A stretch of 44,283 bases of DNA from Nevskia sp. (lineage in GTDB: Bacteria; Pseudomonadota; Gammaproteobacteria; Nevskiales; Nevskiaceae): contig JAQGNU010000216.1 in NCBI GenBank assembly GCA_028291645.1, forward strand, positions 1 through 44,283. The letters are read 5' to 3'. Below are positions 3,525 through 13,407 of the stretch, piece after piece. Made by a program: the position numbers and the translations under genes. Each line of letters opens with the position of its first letter. Within the stretch, counting starts at the first letter, position 1. The notes beneath the pieces are model-generated. The model worked only from the letters and a program-made list of their open reading frames with translations, was not told where the DNA came from and searched no databases.

Positions 3525-4148
3525 TCATGAGGCTTGGGTCGGACGGTCGGAATACCAGTCCGACATATCGTCGTACATCGCGCCCTTGAACAGATAGTAC
3601 GGCGCCTTGTGATAGATCTTGATGTCGTGAAACGGGTCGCTGAGGATTTTCGAACACCACACCAGACCTGACTGCACGCCCTTCAGGAAGAACAACTGGA
3701 CGGTGCGGAACAGCACCGCGCCGATGCCGACCAGCAGCCACAGGATCGAGGTGTTGTAGAGCAGCCCGCGCGCAACTTCCTGCGGATCGAAGAAGCCGAA
3801 GAAATCCGGCTGCAGAAGCAGCACGAATGGCACCAGCACCCAGATGCTCAGCAGCACGACCTTGCGCTGCAGGTTGTAGCCAACCTTCACGCTTTCCTTG
3901 TACTCGTGGCTGGCGTTGTTGACGGTGTCGTAGGTCTTCGGCTCGAAGAAGAAGTGGCCGATCTGGCGCAGAATCATCGCCAGCAGCCAGCCGACCATCA
4001 CCGCAAGCACCGGGTTAATGAAGATCAGCACATAGCTGGCGATGAAACAGCAGGCGCTGACCAGGTGCAGCGACTGGTTGATGCGGCTGTGATGGTAGTA
4101 ACGATGATCGTCCCAGCGTTGCTGCTGCAGCTCTTCGATAAAGTTCAT
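3525..4148 (-). CDS. Multipass membrane protein, last gene of lipid-type operon
   Basis: A 207-residue protein with about four hydrophobic helices (residues 27-47, 48-65, 98-115 and 131-155). The N-terminal pattern HHSRINQSLHL followed by two helices and IGHFFFEP recalls the DUF962/Mpo1 membrane family, whose yeast member is an iron-dependent lipid alpha-oxidation dioxygenase. The resemblance is weak and I do not claim the activity. The start MNFIEEL has an AGGAG site 6-7 nt upstream; the longer open frame upstream overlaps the decarboxylase gene in another frame and is not used. It lies 38 nt after the phosphatidylserine decarboxylase gene, so it is probably co-transcribed and acts at the membrane on the product of the operon. 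Confidence 0.7.
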   Translation of the reverse strand: MNFIEELQQQRWDDHRYYHHSRINQSLHLVSACCFIASYVLIFINPVLAVMVGWLLAMILRQIGHFFFEPKTYDTVNNASHEYKESVKVGYNLQRKVVLLSIWVLVPFVLLLQPDFFGFFDPQEVARGLLYNTSILWLLVGIGAVLFRTVQLFFLKGVQSGLVWCSKILSDPFHDIKIYHKAPYYLFKGAMYDDMSDWYSDRPTQAS

Positions 4149-4186
4149 GTCGGCTCCTGGGTGACTTCGCAAATAAACAGTTGGTA

Positions 4187-5053
4187 TCAAGCGGCAGCGG
4201 TCATCAGCGCTTCGCCCATGCGGATGATCTCGCCCTGGCGCACGCCTTCGGACAAGGCGTAGTTCGACGTCGCGAAGACGATGATGGTCGAGCCGTGCTG
4301 GAAGTAGCCCATCTCGTCGCCCTTGCGATACTGCGCAGAGCAACGAATGCGATTCGGCCCACGGTATTGCAGATCGAGATCGTGCGGCAGGCAATGGAAT
4401 TTCATGCTGGCAACCAGGATCGCAGCCACCGGCACCATGCAGACACTGCCGGCGTGGCCGGTGTCGCTCAGCGGCACGACCGCACGTTCATTGCGGCAAT
4501 AGAGTTTCTCGATGCGCTTGAGCGCGATCGGATTGACGTTCCAGGTATCGCCGGAGATGTAGCGGACTTCCTCGACCGTGCAATCCAGCGGCGCATGAAA
4601 GCGGTGATACATGCTCGACTTCAATCGCAGCGTCGCGTAGCAACCGTCGCGATAGGTTTCCTGCAGCGCGGGATCGGGCATCAGCTCGCCGATCTCGTAC
4701 GGAAATCCCTTGGCCTGGAACACCGTGGTGCCGGCAATCGGGCCGCATTCGCCGACGATGGCATCGCAGGGACTGACGATGATTTCCTGGCGCAGGTCCA
4801 GCGGCCGCGCATCGGGTTTCAGGCGTCGCGTGAAGCATTCGTGCAGGCTGTTGAACCGCTGCCGCTCCGCTTCCTGCAGATTCAGATCATCAGCGAGCAG
4901 CTGCCACAGCGCGATCGATAATTGCGTCAGCGCCGGACTTTCGATGCGGCTGTACCAGCCGACGAACTGCGTCAATGCGCGACGCGGAATGCGATTGGTC
5001 AGCAGAAAGTTGAGCTGCTCCTGCTGGCTCAGATGACGCAGTGCCGTAGCCAT
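4187..5053 (-). CDS. Phosphatidylserine decarboxylase proenzyme family protein
   Basis: A 288-residue pyruvoyl-dependent decarboxylase of the Psd family, full length compared with E. coli Psd (322 aa with its longer tail). The catalytic triad is visible: D97 in SPCDAIVG, H153 in YHRFHAP, and S255 in the HGST self-cleavage motif that would give the beta chain and the pyruvoyl alpha chain. The family converts phosphatidylserine to phosphatidylethanolamine at the inner membrane. Within this operon it may act on a related amino-acid-headed lipid instead. The gene starts 3 nt after the stop of the PHP-glycosyltransferase gene. Whether the genome has a second, housekeeping psd cannot be seen, so I give no symbol. 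Confidence 0.88.
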   Translation of the reverse strand: MATALRHLSQQEQLNFLLTNRIPRRALTQFVGWYSRIESPALTQLSIALWQLLADDLNLQEAERQRFNSLHECFTRRLKPDARPLDLRQEIIVSPCDAIVGECGPIAGTTVFQAKGFPYEIGELMPDPALQETYRDGCYATLRLKSSMYHRFHAPLDCTVEEVRYISGDTWNVNPIALKRIEKLYCRNERAVVPLSDTGHAGSVCMVPVAAILVASMKFHCLPHDLDLQYRGPNRIRCSAQYRKGDEMGYFQHGSTIIVFATSNYALSEGVRQGEIIRMGEALMTAAA

Positions 5054-5056
5054 GAC

Positions 5057-7756
5057 TCAGGCGGCCGACCGCTGTTCCGCTTCGGCGTCGACGACCGTCA
5101 AACCCATATCGTGCAGGAACTGACGCATGATCGGTTCGGCCTGGTAATCCGCGACGCGCTTGTGCGCCTCGCGCCGCATCGCGGTATGTCGTTCGCGATC
5201 GTTGAAGTGCGCGACAATCTGCGCGGACATCTCGTCGATATTGTTGACCAGATAGCCATTGCGACCGTGCTGGATAATGTCCTTCGGCCCCTTGCAGTTG
5301 TAGGCCAGCACCGGCATGCCGTGTGAGAAGGCTTCCAGAACGACATTGCCGAAGGTATCGAACTGCGAAGGAAACACGAACAGGTCGAGTCCGGCATACA
5401 GCTGTGCCAAGCGCTCGCGACTGATCCAGCCGAGGAAGCTCGCTTCCGGCAAGGCCTTGCGCAATTCGCTTTCCGCCGGCCCCGAGCCGGCGATGACCAG
5501 TTTCAGATCCGGAATCGCGAGGCGCGCCTTGCGATAGATTTCCGGCAGTTCGAGTACGCCCTTTTCCTTGCTGATGCGGCAGGCGGTGAACAGCACCGGT
5601 GTGTGTTCGGTGGCGCCCGCAATCAGTTCCGACTTGCGCACCGGCACGCTATTGAAGCCGACCGGTTCGGTGTGGTGCGCAGTCAGGTGCACCTTGTTTT
5701 CCGGCAAGCCCATCTGGTGGCCGGTGAGCCATTCGCGGTGATCCGAGTTGAGCACGAACACGCCATCGAACTGGTGATACAGCGCGCGCAGCAGGCGCCG
5801 GATGCGATCGCGTTCATGCTGGTTGAGATCGGTGGTGTGTTTGACGAAATCGATCCAGTCGGTGTGCATGAAGAAATACGTCGGCACGTTGAACATGTAC
5901 TTCAGGAACAGCGCGACCAGCACCATCGGACCTTCAGTGGAGCACACCACGCGGTCGTAGCCGCCGCGATAGAACGCGCGCGCGATCTCCAGCACGTCGG
6001 GTACGCGGAAGGTCTGCTCGCCGAGTTTCGGAAAGCTGAACTCGGCCAGCGGCTTCACCACATGCAGATGCGGCTCGGCCGCGGCATCGGCGTGACAGAT
6101 CAGGAAATCGACCGGCAAATCGCTGCGCTGGATCGCGGCCAGCTTGCCCGACAGCGAATTGGAGACGCCGTTCTTGTCGCGCAGCGTATCGGTCAGATAG
6201 AGCGCACGCTGCGGGTGATGGCTGCGGCCTACATGCCCAGCGAACTCGTTGAGGAATGCGCGGTTCTTGTACAGCACGCGGGTGCTGGCGACCTGCGCGC
6301 CGGCCAGCACCAGACTCACCAGCGCCGGAAACATCAGGTTGTCGAGCAAGTCCTTGACGTTGACGCCGCTGAGGTTCTTACCGCCGGAACCGAACAGCAG
6401 CGCGCTGACCTGGCTCGGAATCTCGAAGCGGCGCGTCAGCGATTCGGTTGACAGATCGTCGAGCAGCATGTTGCCGAAGGCCGGCGCGGCGTTGCGCAGC
6501 CGCTTGATCATCAGCTTGTTGAGACCGGTGAACAGCTCGGCAATCGCTTCGTTGACGGTGGCGACGAAACGTTCCGGCGATTGCTTGCGGCTCTCAGCGA
6601 TCTTCTCCAGCTGCATGACGCAGAAGCGGAAATCGCTCGATACATTCCAGCGGATCATCCAGTCGGGCTTCTTGCCGTGCAGCGCGTCGTGCACGTACGC
6701 GATGAACAACTGCGTCTTCTTGTGCTTCTTCATCTCCAGCAGCGCGTTGGCGATGGCGAAGCAGGCGACTTTGTCCTCGAGTTCGCCGCGGTGGAACATC
6801 ATCCGCAGCAGGCCCGGATCTTCGATGCGCGTTGCGATCTGCGAGAAATAATCCAGCAGCGCGATCGTCAGCTTCTGGTTTTCGCCGACATCGCCGAACG
6901 GCGCAGCGTGACCGGCACGCAGCGCTTCCAGCGCGAGCCTCGATAGCGGCGTGTGCTGGCGCCGCTGCGCCAGATTCGGCACCCACAGATACGAGCCGCA
7001 CTGGCCCGCGAACATGCCCATGTGATCGTCGGAACCGCCGGTGAGTGTTTTCGTCCGCAGCGGTGAAACGCCGAAATCCGCCGGATTCAGATGATGCTTG
7101 CGACTGTAGCGCTGCAGCTTCTCTTCATTCAGCCCCTGCGCCCAATGCAAGGTCAGCACGCTCTGCCAGACATCGCGCTGGCCGTTGAGCACTTCGAAGC
7201 GCTGGAACATCAGCGCCAGCTTCTCGAACAGCTCCGGGCTGATGCCGGGATTGGTCGTATAGAAGTACAGCGGGTGCGGCAGGATGACCGGAATATCGTG
7301 TTCGGCGGTGTAGCGCAGGAACTCGTAGATGTCGCCGCGCTTGCGGTTGAGGATGGCTTCCTGCGCCGGCGTGAAGCCGTACGTCAGCACATGCACGTAC
7401 AGGTCGTACTCCGAGAAGAAGCAGGTGAACTCGGCCGCCGGCAATACATCGTGGCCCTTCTCCAGCAGCTTCCAGCACGAGCGTGCGTTGTTGTGATTGG
7501 TGATGGTCAGCACGTCGCTGCCGTTGCCCTGCAGGCATTTCACCAGCTTGCCGGTTTTCAGCCAGGTTTCCGGCAAGCGCAGGATGCGGCCCCACAGCTC
7601 GTCCGGAACATCGCTGTTGTGATCGTGGCAGTGGAAGTCGATGCGCAAGGATTCCGCACGCGGAAAGCGCGCCGCCTCGACCATCAGATAGCGATTGAAC
7701 TCCGCATGCAGTTCATCGCGGAATGAGGAGTGTTCCAGGCTGATGCGATTGAGCAT
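5057..7756 (-). CDS. PHP-domain phosphoesterase fused to GT4 glycosyltransferase
   Basis: An 899-residue two-domain protein. Residues 38-270 form a PHP metal-dependent phosphoesterase: HCH at 42-44, TNHNN at 86-90, E109, H122, LPHP with H161, the EVLNG segment at 188-192 and GGSDDH at 240-245, which together supply the usual metal ligands. A helical linker follows. Residues about 515-890 are a GT-B fold, family-4 retaining glycosyltransferase with TDTLRDKNGVS near the start, an ACRISKEKG phosphate-binding region and the E-x7-E signature DTFGNVVLEAFSHG near 799-812. GT4 enzymes include lipid glycosyltransferases. The pairing suggests that one polypeptide dephosphorylates and glycosylates a lipid intermediate, or that the PHP domain is regulatory. 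The stop is 3 nt before the decarboxylase start; the gene begins 1 nt after the aminotransferase stop. Confidence 0.88.
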   Translation of the reverse strand: MLNRISLEHSSFRDELHAEFNRYLMVEAARFPRAESLRIDFHCHDHNSDVPDELWGRILRLPETWLKTGKLVKCLQGNGSDVLTITNHNNARSCWKLLEKGHDVLPAAEFTCFFSEYDLYVHVLTYGFTPAQEAILNRKRGDIYEFLRYTAEHDIPVILPHPLYFYTTNPGISPELFEKLALMFQRFEVLNGQRDVWQSVLTLHWAQGLNEEKLQRYSRKHHLNPADFGVSPLRTKTLTGGSDDHMGMFAGQCGSYLWVPNLAQRRQHTPLSRLALEALRAGHAAPFGDVGENQKLTIALLDYFSQIATRIEDPGLLRMMFHRGELEDKVACFAIANALLEMKKHKKTQLFIAYVHDALHGKKPDWMIRWNVSSDFRFCVMQLEKIAESRKQSPERFVATVNEAIAELFTGLNKLMIKRLRNAAPAFGNMLLDDLSTESLTRRFEIPSQVSALLFGSGGKNLSGVNVKDLLDNLMFPALVSLVLAGAQVASTRVLYKNRAFLNEFAGHVGRSHHPQRALYLTDTLRDKNGVSNSLSGKLAAIQRSDLPVDFLICHADAAAEPHLHVVKPLAEFSFPKLGEQTFRVPDVLEIARAFYRGGYDRVVCSTEGPMVLVALFLKYMFNVPTYFFMHTDWIDFVKHTTDLNQHERDRIRRLLRALYHQFDGVFVLNSDHREWLTGHQMGLPENKVHLTAHHTEPVGFNSVPVRKSELIAGATEHTPVLFTACRISKEKGVLELPEIYRKARLAIPDLKLVIAGSGPAESELRKALPEASFLGWISRERLAQLYAGLDLFVFPSQFDTFGNVVLEAFSHGMPVLAYNCKGPKDIIQHGRNGYLVNNIDEMSAQIVAHFNDRERHTAMRREAHKRVADYQAEPIMRQFLHDMGLTVVDAEAEQRSAA

Positions 7757-7757
7757 G

Positions 7758-9470
7758 TCAGAGACTCTCCTCGACCGAGCTGCTGGGGATGATTGCGAGA
7801 CCTGGAGACCGGACGGCGGACCGCAATCCGAACCGCTGGATCAGCATGTCCTTAAGCATTTGCCGCTTGATCCACTTATTGGTCAGGTGCGGTGCGGCCC
7901 ACCACCAGCCGTCGTTCTGCATCTGCTGCGCGGCACGCTGGAAGCGGCGCGCGATTTCCGCGAAATCGTCGTCGGAATAGTTGAGGCTCATGATCATCCG
8001 CCCGCTGCCGATCCAGCTCAGCTCCAGGCCTTCCGCGCGCAGATAGAACTGCAGCATCCAGTTGTAGCGCGAAGGCGTGCTGTAGAGGATCGTGACAATG
8101 CTGTGCATGTTGGCCACACGCACCGGCAGGCTCGCGGCCGCGAGTTGCTGGTTCAGACTGGCAACACGCGTGTTCCACAGCGCATCGGCAGCCGCGTAGA
8201 TGCCCTGCACTTCCGGCTGCCGGATGCGCTGCAGGAACTCGTGCATGCAGGCCATCACGTGCGGATGCGAATTGAAGGTGCCGCGCGCGAACGAGATGTT
8301 GGCCGGCTCCGCATCCTTGAAACGCTTCATCAACGCAGCACGACCGCACAGCACGCCGACCGGCAGGCCGCCGCCGAGCGTCTTGCCGTAGGTGACCATG
8401 TCGGCCTGCACCGAGAAGTATTCCTGCGCGCCGCGATATGCCAGGCGGAAGCCGGCGAACACTTCGTCGAAGATCAGCACGATGCCGCGACGCGTGCAGA
8501 CTGCGCGGATGCGCGCAAGCCATTCGGAATAGGCGGCGCGGTCGAACGCGGTGCGGCGTTCGCTGTTGACCAGCGAGGCATCGCCCGGCGCATCCGCGTT
8601 CGGATGCAGCGCCTGCAGCGGATTGATCAGCACGCAGGCGATGTCCTTGCGCGTTTCCAGCACCTGCAATGTGCGCTCGCTGAGATCGGCCAGCGTATAG
8701 ACGTCGTTGACCTGGCGCTGGTTGCCGACGCCGGGCTGCACGCCATCCCACCAGCCGTGATAGGCGCCGCAGAGCCGCACCAGATGCGTCCTGCCGGTGT
8801 GATAGCGCGCCAGCCGCACCGCCTGCATCACCGCTTCGGTGCCCGACATGTGGAACGACACTTCGTCGAGGCCGGAGATTTCCCGCAGCGCTTCGACGTT
8901 GTCGCGGATCACCGGATGGTACGGCCCCAGAACCGGCCCGAGGTCGGCGACCTTGGCGTAGCCCGCGCTCAAGCATTCCTTGTAGAAGTCGTAGCCGAAG
9001 ACATTGACGCCATACGAACCGGAAAGGTCGTAGCGCCAGTTTCCGTCCAGATCACACAACTGGGTGCCGCGTGTCTGCGTGACGATGCTGCCGAACCTGA
9101 ACTCTCGCGGCAGCAGGCTGCGGTAGGGAAACGGCACTCGGTAGTGACTGGTGAACTGCACGTCGGAGATGCTGCTTTCGAGCGATTCGCTGAAGCTCAG
9201 GGTCGCTGGAGACGTACTAGCGAACTGCTGACGCAATCGCGCCATGCCGCTCTTGCGCCGCGCAGCCGCATCCGCAGGCGCGAGGTCGCTGCAGAAATAG
9301 CGCTCGACGCCGTAATCAAAAAAGTGGGTCCACTGCGCCAGCCGGCGCGACATCTTGGCGTGGCCGCTCAGCGACGGGTGCTTGGCGCGAGACAGTTGGA
9401 GTCGGAAGTAAACTTTTCGGAGGAGCAGCGCCCCGAGACCGGCTACGAACAGATATCGAGCGATTTCCAA
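7758..9470 (-). CDS. Membrane-anchored class III (GSA-type) aminotransferase
   Basis: A 570-residue PLP enzyme of aminotransferase class III, closest in pattern to glutamate-1-semialdehyde aminomutases. SGTEAVMQAVRLAR binds the cofactor phosphate, AYHGWWDG follows, D335 in FDEVFAGFR contacts the pyridine nitrogen and K363 in YGKTLGGG is the Schiff-base lysine. Unusually, it begins with a hydrophobic helix (residues 5-22) and has an extra N-terminal region of about 120 residues and a basic C-terminal tail, making it much longer than the usual 430. No ATG or GTG lies between the upstream in-frame stop (three codons before) and the TTG at 9470, so TTG is the start. First gene of the operon; probably membrane-associated. 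Substrate unknown; a haem-pathway HemL is unlikely given the anchor and context. Confidence 0.85.
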   Translation of the reverse strand: MEIARYLFVAGLGALLLRKVYFRLQLSRAKHPSLSGHAKMSRRLAQWTHFFDYGVERYFCSDLAPADAAARRKSGMARLRQQFASTSPATLSFSESLESSISDVQFTSHYRVPFPYRSLLPREFRFGSIVTQTRGTQLCDLDGNWRYDLSGSYGVNVFGYDFYKECLSAGYAKVADLGPVLGPYHPVIRDNVEALREISGLDEVSFHMSGTEAVMQAVRLARYHTGRTHLVRLCGAYHGWWDGVQPGVGNQRQVNDVYTLADLSERTLQVLETRKDIACVLINPLQALHPNADAPGDASLVNSERRTAFDRAAYSEWLARIRAVCTRRGIVLIFDEVFAGFRLAYRGAQEYFSVQADMVTYGKTLGGGLPVGVLCGRAALMKRFKDAEPANISFARGTFNSHPHVMACMHEFLQRIRQPEVQGIYAAADALWNTRVASLNQQLAAASLPVRVANMHSIVTILYSTPSRYNWMLQFYLRAEGLELSWIGSGRMIMSLNYSDDDFAEIARRFQRAAQQMQNDGWWWAAPHLTNKWIKRQMLKDMLIQRFGLRSAVRSPGLAIIPSSSVEESL

Positions 9471-9830
9471 GATGACTTAGACGGACCTTAGAGACGCCAA
9501 TTGGCGCAATCAGGCGACGGTACAAGGTCTGCATGGCAAAAAAATGAAGGTGTCTGTGCGACTCTGATTTTCCGGTGCGCCACGCCTTCCAGCTTCCAAC
9601 CGTTCGAGGATGGAAGCTTGCTTACAGGTTTGTCCACAGGCTATCCAGCACAGGCACACAAGCGCGCGAGCGTCTAGCGCTTTATTTCAATTATCTTTAT
9701 CCGGCCAATGGACACAAAGTAGTCATCGCTCCGTAACAAACGGATCCGGCGAGCACGCCGAGGCCTGTAATCGAGCAGTCATATCAGGCGAGCGACAATA
9801 GCTGCAGCGTGATGACCGAAGTCCCAGCAT
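9471..9830. other. Intergenic region upstream of the lipid-type operon
   Basis: A 360-nt stretch with no convincing gene. It contains a perfect 12-bp palindrome close to the operon start (annotated separately) and otherwise nothing I can name. Confidence 0.5.
9495..9506. promoter_or_regulatory. Palindrome upstream of the aminotransferase operon
   Basis: CGCCAATTGGCG is a perfect 12-bp palindrome, 24 nt before the TTG start at 9470. Its position fits an operator or a 5' leader hairpin. The regulator is unknown. Confidence 0.35.
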
Positions 9831-11708: not shown

Positions 11709-11809
11709 GTGGCCGGCATTTTAGAGGAAGACGGGGAAAAAGGCCGGATCTTTATGTCCGCGGCCGGCACAGCATGGTGGCTTGCATTGCCGCTCAGGCT
11801 AGCGGGCGA

Positions 11810-12181
11810 TTAGCGGTTTCCTGAATAGTCGCCGGGGAATAGCGGCGTTGAGCGACGATCGGTCGCAGGTGAGCCATTGCGCGGTCTTAACTTTGCGCGG
11901 TTCAACAGGCGCAGCGCTTTCAGCGTTCTCCGCCGAAAAAACGGTGGCCGTTTACGAACGATCGCGAAGCTGTCGTCGTCGCCGCCCTTCAAATACAAGT
12001 AGCCGCGGGTGTCGAGCCGCGCCAGCCCTTCCGCCAGATCGGCGCGTCGCAGTCCGGTCAAGAGCCAGTACCGGCCGATGGTGCTCAGGCGAATCCAGCC
12101 GCCGACACGAACCTCCTCGCAGCGCAGAATCTTGAAGATCGCTTCGTCGACGACGACGATGGTATTTATCGGGTTGTTCAT
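11810..12181 (-). CDS. Hypothetical stand-alone winged-helix-like domain protein
   Basis: A 123-residue protein whose residues about 28-80 match the N-terminal extra domain of the neighbouring Crp-like regulator. Both contain TGLRR-x-DLAEG (42-52 here, 39-49 there) followed by a turn and a strand ending in KRP. The pattern resembles a small winged helix. The basic C-terminal tail (RRRTLKALRLLNRAKLRPR) could bind nucleic acid. The gene begins 20 nt after the Crp-like stop and is probably co-transcribed. A longer open frame through this region starts inside the Crp-like gene and is out of frame with it, so the ATG at 12181 is used. Function unknown; probably a partner or modulator of the regulator. 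Confidence 0.7.
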   Translation of the reverse strand: MNNPINTIVVVDEAIFKILRCEEVRVGGWIRLSTIGRYWLLTGLRRADLAEGLARLDTRGYLYLKGGDDDSFAIVRKRPPFFRRRTLKALRLLNRAKLRPRNGSPATDRRSTPLFPGDYSGNR

Positions 12182-12201
12182 GGTCGGCAATCCAACAGCG
12201 T

Positions 12202-13407
12202 TCAAACGAGCGATGCGGAACCGGCGCGCGGCATTGACGCCGGGCCCTGAGCACGTTTCTCCGAGCGTCGACCGCCGGCCGAATTGGCGGCATCGCTTGC
12301 GGCATCCGACGCGCGCTCGCCCAGCGTCGGCCGCAAGCGATCGAACTCGTTCTTGACCACGGCGTAACATTCGCAGGAGTGCTGCGCCAGCACGCGCCGG
12401 TCGAGCAGCGTGATGCTGCCGCGCTCGCAGTCGATCAGCCCGGCACGTTTGAGCTTGCCGATCGCTTCGGTAATCCCGACCCGGCGCACACCGATCATGC
12501 TGGCCACCACTTCGTGTGTCATCGTCAAGCGGTTTGAACGCAGACGGTCGGCGCTTGCCAGCAACAACCGGCACAACTGCTGCTCCACCGAATGATGCCG
12601 GTTGCAGGCAGCTCGCTGCGCCACCTGCATCAACAGCGCCTGCGAGTAACGCAGCAGTAGTCGCTGCAGTACACCGGCGTGCTCGAATTCGTCCTGCAAA
12701 GCGTTCATCTTGAGTCGATAGGCAAAGCCCGCATGCAGCACGATCGCGCGCGTCGGCGCAGTAACGCCGCCAAGCGCCGCCGAGATGCTCACCATGCCTT
12801 CGTTGCCGACGATCGCAATCTCGTTGGAGGAGCCGTCGGCCATCGTCTGCACCAGCGAGACGATGCAGTCGACCGGGAAATACACGTAGTTGAGACGATC
12901 GCCGCTTTCCCACAGCACACGACCGAGCGGCATCGGCACCAACTCCAGATGAGGATCCAGTCGCTCATGCACAGTCTTCGGCAGCACTACGAGCAAGCGG
13001 TTTTTTGCGGACGTGCGCTTATCCGGACTGGCACCGCGCTGCGGTTTGTCTTTGCTGCGCCGGCTCAAAATCGAATCGGATGGATCGCGGCGCACGCGCT
13101 CGGCAGCCTGTGCCAGCAGTCGATCGAGTTCCGGTACGCCGGCCAGCGTACGCTCGCGCGGATTGGCGCCGTCTGGCAACGGCCGCTTGGTCAACACGTA
13201 AACGCAGTTGCCGGCGTGATACCTGGACTGCAGAAAACCGGTATCGGTGAGCGCACGGACACCCTCGGCAAGATCGTCGCGGCGCAAGCCGGTGCCTTCC
13301 CACAAGCGATAGAGCGTGCGCGCTTCCAAAGGCGCGCGACTCCCCAGCGCGTTGGTTGCAAATAATTTACGGATTGCATGCTCTGCCAGTTCAGTCGTCA
13401 CCATCAT
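12202..13407 (-). CDS. Crp/Fnr-family regulator with extra N-terminal domain
   Basis: A 401-residue regulator, far longer than the usual 220-250. Residues about 30-76 form a winged-helix-like unit shared with the next gene, followed by a charged linker (80-134). Residues about 135-255 are a cNMP-binding beta-barrel (LGRVLWESGDRLNYVYFPVDCIVSLV), and 270-345 the Crp helix-turn-helix (MTHEVVASMIGVRRVGITEAIGKLKRAGLI). The C-terminus is a disordered charged tail. No Fnr-type iron-sulfur cysteine cluster is seen, so a small-molecule or redox-independent signal is likely. Start ATGATG has GAGGA 8 nt upstream. The C-terminal regulator half matches a group of Crp-like proteins widespread in proteobacteria. 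Confidence 0.85.
   Translation of the reverse strand: MMVTTELAEHAIRKLFATNALGSRAPLEARTLYRLWEGTGLRRDDLAEGVRALTDTGFLQSRYHAGNCVYVLTKRPLPDGANPRERTLAGVPELDRLLAQAAERVRRDPSDSILSRRSKDKPQRGASPDKRTSAKNRLLVVLPKTVHERLDPHLELVPMPLGRVLWESGDRLNYVYFPVDCIVSLVQTMADGSSNEIAIVGNEGMVSISAALGGVTAPTRAIVLHAGFAYRLKMNALQDEFEHAGVLQRLLLRYSQALLMQVAQRAACNRHHSVEQQLCRLLLASADRLRSNRLTMTHEVVASMIGVRRVGITEAIGKLKRAGLIDCERGSITLLDRRVLAQHSCECYAVVKNEFDRLRPTLGERASDAASDAANSAGGRRSEKRAQGPASMPRAGSASLV

Follow-up and report, generated by a model that had tools for sequence, protein, structure and literature searches.

Replacement of phospholipids by phosphorus-free lipids lowers the phosphate need of bacteria. The familiar phosphorus-saving routes lead to glycolipids, sulfolipids, ornithine-type lipids and betaine lipids; the betaine lipids made by BtaA/BtaB are a phosphorus-free substitute for phosphatidylcholine (PC) in other bacteria. 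In the PlcP-Agt system, a phosphoesterase and a family 4 glycosyltransferase (GT4), encoded behind a Pho box, turn phospholipid into glycolipid (PMC4796936, PMC8528852, PMC9239053). OlsB/OlsA form ornithine and lysine lipids, aminolipids made under phosphate limitation, with a Pho box before olsB (PMC11828411). We analysed a 44,283-nt contig of Nevskia sp. (JAQGNU010000216.1; hereafter the window) that carries on its minus strand an operon for a class-III pyridoxal phosphate (PLP) aminotransferase (AT), a PHP-like phosphoesterase fused to a GT4 glycosyltransferase (PHP-GT4), a second paralogue of the phosphatidylserine decarboxylase family (PSD) and an Mpo1-like (DUF962) membrane protein. The operon probably serves to remodel membrane lipids under PhoB control when phosphate is exhausted, with PHP-GT4 leading to a glycolipid and the other three genes (the core) to an amine-bearing lipid. 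This reading is supported by co-inheritance of the core, by intact catalytic residues and by the Pho box that many Pseudomonadota relatives have upstream of AT.

The operon resembles PlcP-Agt in having a phosphoesterase and a GT4 glycosyltransferase behind a predicted Pho box (PMC4796936, PMC8528852, PMC9239053). However, its phosphoesterase domain is PHP-like and fused, whereas that of PlcP-Agt is a separate protein. No calcineurin-type gene lies beside the window's glycosyltransferase gene, and judged by adjacency the locus is not of the PlcP-Agt type; the genome's own PlcP-like gene persists on another contig, apparently beside trehalose genes as read from the open reading frames (ORFs). 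The core has no counterpart in the PlcP-Agt papers, because the main texts of PMC4796936, PMC8528852 and PMC9239053 contain neither the word decarboxylase nor aminotransferase. Unlike OlsB/OlsA, the operon has no acyltransferase, and the amino group would be handled by AT and PSD. BtaA (PF11899) had no match in the Nevskia genome or in 30 of the 35 core-bearing genomes, which sets the operon apart from the BtaA/BtaB route; a diacylglyceryl-homoserine/betaine route as source of the PSD substrate was rejected. The PssA-Psd-PmtA/PEMT pathway shares the PSD family with the operon, and its methyltransferases have look-alikes near some of the core loci; the operon PSD differs in being a second paralogue with its own cleavage-site residue and in being tied to AT and the Mpo1-like gene. 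Among the titles and abstract openings listed by a literature search, mostly open-access, none described this gene set.

All four ORFs run in the same direction in the order AT, PHP-GT4, PSD, Mpo1-like (Table 1). Their coordinates confirmed the original prediction of a four-gene operon with intergenic gaps of 1, 3 and 38 nt. The automatic ORF caller placed the start of the fourth gene at position 4394, within PSD. Because 22 of the 35 rows of the Mpo1-like alignment begin at most two residues from the ATG at 4148, the remaining rows being longer starts from the ORF caller, this ATG is the sensible start.

A scan of a contig collection for AT relatives yielded at least 590 stretches, of which 80 were kept; addition of our own loci and removal of duplicates gave 84 loci (L012-L016, identical to L020-L023 and L063, were removed before counting). 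AT, PSD and the Mpo1-like gene were all present in 79 of the 84, and the core spanned no more than 8 kb in 77 of these 79. In each of the five exceptions (L020, L028, L031, L040 and L060), the contig ends inside the PHP-GT4 gene beside AT; chance clustering is therefore ruled out. A PHP-GT4 relative was found beside AT in 41 loci: 39 orthologues and a low-identity PHP-GT in the Planctomycetota loci L069 and L083. Other layouts were common, with PSD and AT divergent and the Mpo1-like gene convergent, often together with a stand-alone GT4 gene, and the core also occurs without an adjacent glycosyltransferase gene (e.g. L043 and L049). Clustered cores were found in Gamma-, Beta-, Alpha- and Zetaproteobacteria, as well as at a few loci labelled Holophagae, Acanthopleuribacter, Sulfidibacter or Planctomycetota. 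The five loci with 79-84% AT identity bear the titles Nevskia soli, Nevskia sp., Hydrocarboniphaga sp., 'Sinobacteraceae' and, in one case, 'Rhodospirillales bacterium'; most are metagenome-assembled genomes.

We also searched 61 genomes, the Nevskia genome included, at thresholds of E ≤ 1e-10 for the Mpo1-like protein, 1e-50 for core-type PSD, 1e-60 for AT and 1e-80 for PHP-GT4. PSD and the Mpo1-like gene were present in the same 10 genomes, AT in 9 of those and PHP-GT4 in 8; in the tenth genome (G001), the expected place of AT is cut off, the contig breaking off 44 nt before the PHP-GT4 start. None of the four genes was found in the other 51 genomes at these thresholds. Among 397 sampled Pseudomonadota genomes, again with our own, AT (E ≤ 1e-120) was present in 28. 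These findings support AT, PSD and the Mpo1-like gene as a co-inherited core. The original prediction had called for a search for the four genes together in other bacteria; with the core both co-inherited and clustered, that search did not refute it. Conservation as a set held for the core but not for PHP-GT4, which is optional. The operon is confirmed as real, and what is conserved is a set of three genes to which PHP-GT4 may be added.

To score the 150-nt regions upstream of AT, we used the Pho-box consensus CTGTCATNNNNCTGTCAT, i.e. CTGTCAT N4 CTGTCAT (PMC11828411), which gives a maximum score of 24. Four of the 84 loci had too short an upstream and were dropped. The mean best score of the other 80 at a period of 11 was 16.84, a value reached by none of 1497 column-permuted motifs (14.26 ± 0.44); other repeat spacings gave 14.2-15.7 and the reverse orientation 14.65. 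Scores of at least 18 were found in 30 of the 80 AT upstreams (33% of 81 when the ORF-caller starts of AT were used) and in 3.7% of 762 other ORF upstreams from the same loci; the corresponding values at 16.5 or above were 49 of 80 and 8.8%. The background ORFs were ORF-caller products of at least 150 aa outside the four main clusters, some of which may not be genes. A consensus-free expectation-maximization search of 67 upstreams (13 near-duplicates removed) recovered tGTCATa....TGTCA with a log-likelihood of ~254-257, compared with 91-97 for shuffles. This motif ranked second, after one (278) that stems from PSD coding sequence, which runs on the opposite strand; there were further, weaker motifs. 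A hold-out set of 22 loci (27 fetched later, minus 5 identical to earlier ones) gave a mean of 19.05, which 0 of 999 permuted motifs reached; 17 loci scored at least 16.5 and 14 at least 18, and CTGTCATGAATCTGTCAG occurs in five of them.

Within operons, PSD (3 of 39) and PHP-GT4 (1 of 39) upstreams reached 16.5 at or below the background rate, and where PSD is divergent from AT, only 1 of 31 did so on the PSD-facing strand. In the Nevskia genome, which encodes a PhoB over the curated cut-off, the upstreams of pstS and of the phoB ORF scored 17.5 and 18.0, and 1.9% of 1874 overlapping 160-nt stretches (seven contig pieces, both strands) reached 17, the score of the window's own site. TTCATTTTTTTGCCAT is common to the window and the Nevskia soli locus L020, and is less exact in L063. 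Judged from these motifs, PhoB control of AT is well supported for the Pseudomonadota relatives and likely for the window's own copy of the operon.

A phosphoesterase gene (PF04185, 253 bits) lies on the plus strand at 728-2419, ~1.1 kb past the operon end. A Pho-box-like sequence, GAGTCATCTGCGCGTCAT (score 18.0), stands 108 nt before its start, and the gene may belong to the same starvation response.

Table 1. Features of the operon and its upstream region in the window.
Feature	Position	Strand	Basis or remark
Class-III PLP aminotransferase (AT), 570 aa, TTG start	7758..9470	-	PF00202, 104.5 bits
Predicted PLP lysine K363 of AT, in YGKTLGGG	8382..8384	-	Invariant in 33 sequences
PHP-like phosphoesterase fused to GT4 glycosyltransferase, 899 aa	5057..7756	-	Profiles, alignment and model
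PHP-like domain, residues ~36-290	6887..7651	-	Metal-ligand motifs; weak profile alignment, in register, with YcdX and RNase AM
GT-B fold GT4 glycosyltransferase domain, residues 514-887	5096..6217	-	AlphaFold model, pLDDT (predicted local distance difference test) 83.9; fold search
Phosphatidylserine-decarboxylase-family proenzyme (PSD), second paralogue of the genome	4187..5053	-	TIGR00163, 157.4 bits
Predicted G254/S255 self-cleavage (pyruvoyl) site of PSD, in HGST	4289..4294	-	Alignment
Mpo1-like (DUF962) multi-helix membrane protein, 207 aa	3525..4148	-	PF06127, 24.1 bits
Pho-box-like site CCTTCATTTTTTTGCCAT	9533..9550	-	Score 17.0 of 24; first base 80 nt 5' of AT start

The score of AT against Aminotran_3 (PF00202; cut-off 30.5 bits) places it among the class-III PLP aminotransferases, and its SGTEA and DEVF motifs are invariant or nearly so in 33 sequences. 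AT did not reach the equivalog cut-off of HemL, glutamate-1-semialdehyde aminomutase (163 versus 527.3 bits). Its best relative in the PDB was the aminotransferase part of mycosubtilin synthase subunit A (225 bits), the closest solved sequence; AT differs from it in being a separate protein with its own N-terminal extension. This extension of ~120 aa had no Pfam match, and the sequence begins with a short hydrophobic stretch that is a candidate membrane anchor. Class-III C-6' sugar aminotransferases were also among the PDB relatives. Members of this branch of class III transfer amino groups to the carbonyls of sugars or long-chain compounds.

In the N-terminal half of PHP-GT4, residues H42, H44, H88, E109, H122, H161, D243 and H245 are invariant in 31 sequences. 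They fit the motif set that we take to be characteristic of PHP domains: HxH, an H/N-rich motif II, Glu, His, HP and DxH. However, the curated PHP model PF02811 gave no match, either with the N-terminal region alone or in a genome search, and hmmsearch of the PDB with the domain alignment found no PHP protein. In hhalign comparisons, YcdX (P 0.018) and RNase AM (P 0.019) were matched at low probability (2.5 and 2.4), the control PSD having P 0.67. Fold searches with the PHP-GT4 model returned glycosyltransferase-domain matches, which crowded out this half. The PHP label of the original prediction is supported by the metal-ligand motifs and the weak profile alignments and not by the curated model, and 'PHP-like' is the right word because no curated PHP model recognises this half despite its invariant ligands. 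The C-terminal half is evidently a GT4 enzyme by its GT-B fold and profiles: PF00534 scored 92.1 bits, and the modelled domain matched MshA (3c4q) with VIA Z 35.4 and a root-mean-square deviation of 2.8 over 350 residues, and PimA and PimB' with Z ~31. Many glycan enzymes were among its best NCBIfam relatives. A search of plasmids at E 1e-40 found no relative of PHP-GT4.

Enzymes of the PSD family remove the carboxyl group from an amino-acid head group. The operon PSD scored over the curated cut-offs of both TIGR00163 (111.75 bits) and PF02666 (PS_Dcarbxylase; 188.8 versus 22 bits). Its D97, H153 and S255, described as intact in the original prediction, are indeed invariant in 26 sequences (the window's included) and align with D90, H147 and S254 of the E. 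coli enzyme. The genome's other PSD paralogue (G000:C13) has 30% identity to the operon PSD and 45% to E. coli PSD. The cleavage motif reads HGST in 11 compared core PSDs, and LGST in E. coli PSD and in the other paralogue; the H is present in at least 90% of the 26 core sequences. By these alignments, HGST is a clade-specific residue pattern at the predicted cleavage site.

Yeast Mpo1 is an Fe(II)-dependent 2-hydroxy fatty acid dioxygenase. The window protein appears to belong to the same Pfam family, with a marginal match (24.1 bits; cut-off 24) that covers only residues 11-72 of 207; it aligns over its full length with 34 relatives. The predicted structure was mostly helical (pLDDT 86.7), and a fold search with this model gave no PDB match under E 0.001. 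In L096, a second, more distant Mpo1-like gene (11802-12455; ~48% to the window protein) lies ~8 kb from the first.

Genes within ~10 kb of AT were grouped into clusters, most of which are not annotated. A membrane methyltransferase cluster of the PEMT type (PF04191) was found in 5 of the 84 loci, and in L018 the start of this gene overlaps the AT stop by 4 nt. A PmtA-like methyltransferase lies beside the Mpo1-like gene in five loci, all alphaproteobacterial, bringing the phospholipid-methyltransferase-like neighbours to 10 of 84 loci. One member of each methyltransferase cluster was scanned (PF04191 48.4 bits; PmtA model 143.7, cut-off 390), and the rest were joined by BLAST clustering. A PlcP-like phosphoesterase of the calcineurin type was present in 7 of the 84 loci and in 0 of the 39 with a PHP-GT4 orthologue; 'PlcP-like' is our own label, based on a query from L082 rather than on a characterised PlcP, and the L062 member falls under LpxH-type cut-offs. 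Proximity of these genes to the core does not establish a shared pathway.

We infer every substrate of the proposed pathway, and the order of its steps, as follows. The PHP-like domain would cleave the phosphate-bearing head group, or phosphate, off a phospholipid. The GT4 domain fused to it would transfer a sugar to the resulting diacylglycerol, a division of labour like that between the separate enzymes PlcP and Agt. AT may aminate a carbonyl linked to a lipid, and decarboxylation of an alpha-amino-acid head group by the PSD-type enzyme would give a primary amine. The Mpo1-like protein would act on a 2-hydroxy acid or fatty acid of the same route. The outcome would be a glycolipid plus an amine-bearing lipid, the latter N-methylated in some hosts. 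It is possible, though we hold it with reservation, that the three core proteins together constitute an undescribed pathway whose product is a phosphorus-free analogue of phosphatidylethanolamine (PE), or of PC where PmtA/PEMT acts as well. In this scheme, oxidation of a 2-hydroxy-acid lipid would be followed by amination, which gives a serine-like head, and then by decarboxylation to an amine. The PSD family would thereby gain a non-phosphate substrate, and the route would be induced by PhoB in several classes of Pseudomonadota, mostly in hosts without betaine lipids. If the core does make a new aminolipid, this would add a biosynthetic route, show the PSD family in a new use and give a bacterial DUF962 protein a function. 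The membrane-lipid role suggested in the original prediction is strengthened by the methyltransferase-like neighbours and above all by the Pho box in many relatives; its caution that the products cannot be inferred from sequence still holds.

Several observations weigh against PhoB-controlled lipid remodelling. The window's own box is weak, and 31 of the 80 AT upstreams scored below 16.5. Five loci that are non-Pseudomonadota by their titles (L053, L058, L059, L069 and L083) and Methylocapsa L086 showed no box before AT (best scores 14.0-15.5). Because the loci are related, they cannot be counted as independent; one genus contributes 10 of the 22 hold-out loci, with 78-81% DNA identity to the Bradyrhizobium locus L098. 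Upstreams of Mpo1-like genes inside operons reached 16.5 in 10 of 45 cases, above background, so a second promoter is possible in some hosts; separately placed Mpo1-like genes did so in 11 of 32, not significantly different from those inside operons (P 0.06, 0.30). The PHP domain is confirmed by no curated model. A PlcP-like gene is present in 59 of the 61 genomes (E ≤ 1e-40), the Nevskia genome included; PHP-GT4 is therefore not simply the substitute of PlcP, and that explanation was rejected. A few hosts also have a different phosphorus-free lipid at their disposal, as BtaA is encoded in 5 of the 35 core-bearing genomes.

An unlikely explanation is that the operon PSD does the ordinary work of a phosphatidylserine decarboxylase, as a second copy that increases the supply of PE, and then of PC via PmtA/PEMT, under stress, with AT and the Mpo1-like protein taking part in co-regulated fatty-acid or amino-acid metabolism. 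The enzyme does exceed the curated PS_decarb cut-off and keeps its catalytic residues, and the PmtA/PEMT-like neighbours belong to a kind of enzyme that uses PE in known pathways. However, extra PE made from a phosphate-starvation promoter would be hard to explain, the three core genes are inherited as one, and the cleavage site of this clade carries a residue of its own (HGST rather than LGST).

Two further explanations draw on relatives of the individual enzymes. Modification of an envelope glycan or lipid-A-like molecule, in which GT4 and AT would make and transfer an aminosugar, PHP would strip phosphate, and PSD and the Mpo1-like protein would adjust lipid supply, seems improbable to us. 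The glycan enzymes related to the GT4 domain and the sugar aminotransferases related to AT fit this explanation, as does a UDP-glucose-dehydrogenase-like cluster (by-eye reading) near the core in 4 of the 84 loci. Beyond those four loci, however, no such family was seen among the recognised clusters, most clusters not being annotated, and the core also occurs without an adjacent glycosyltransferase. We give very little credence to a small specialised-metabolite or lipopeptide-like pathway to a beta-amino fatty acid, for which mycosubtilin synthase as the best PDB relative of AT would speak, together with an ABC-transporter-ATPase cluster (by-eye reading, probably mixed) in 14 of the 84 loci. 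No recurrent polyketide synthase or nonribosomal peptide synthetase gene was found among the largest clusters, most of them not annotated, and broad conservation and the Pho box point instead to stress physiology. Lipid remodelling under PhoB is the reading that we favour.

Among other neighbours of the core, membrane proteins of ~270 aa (cluster c9) were found in 7 of the 84 loci (L036, L041, L055, L062, L076, L085 and L099); the L062 member had no Pfam or NCBIfam match. Patatin-like proteins (by-eye reading; cluster c44) were found in three loci, L041, L062 and L076, the L062 copy being short. L085, labelled Bordetella parapertussis, is a metagenome-bin contig of 9 kb that is laid out like the Burkholderiales loci, and its name is probably a binning label. 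The window also encodes, at 12202-13407 on the minus strand, a Crp/Fnr-type regulator (PF13545, PF00027) with ~150 extra N-terminal residues, and the ORF just downstream holds a short stretch that looks related by eye.

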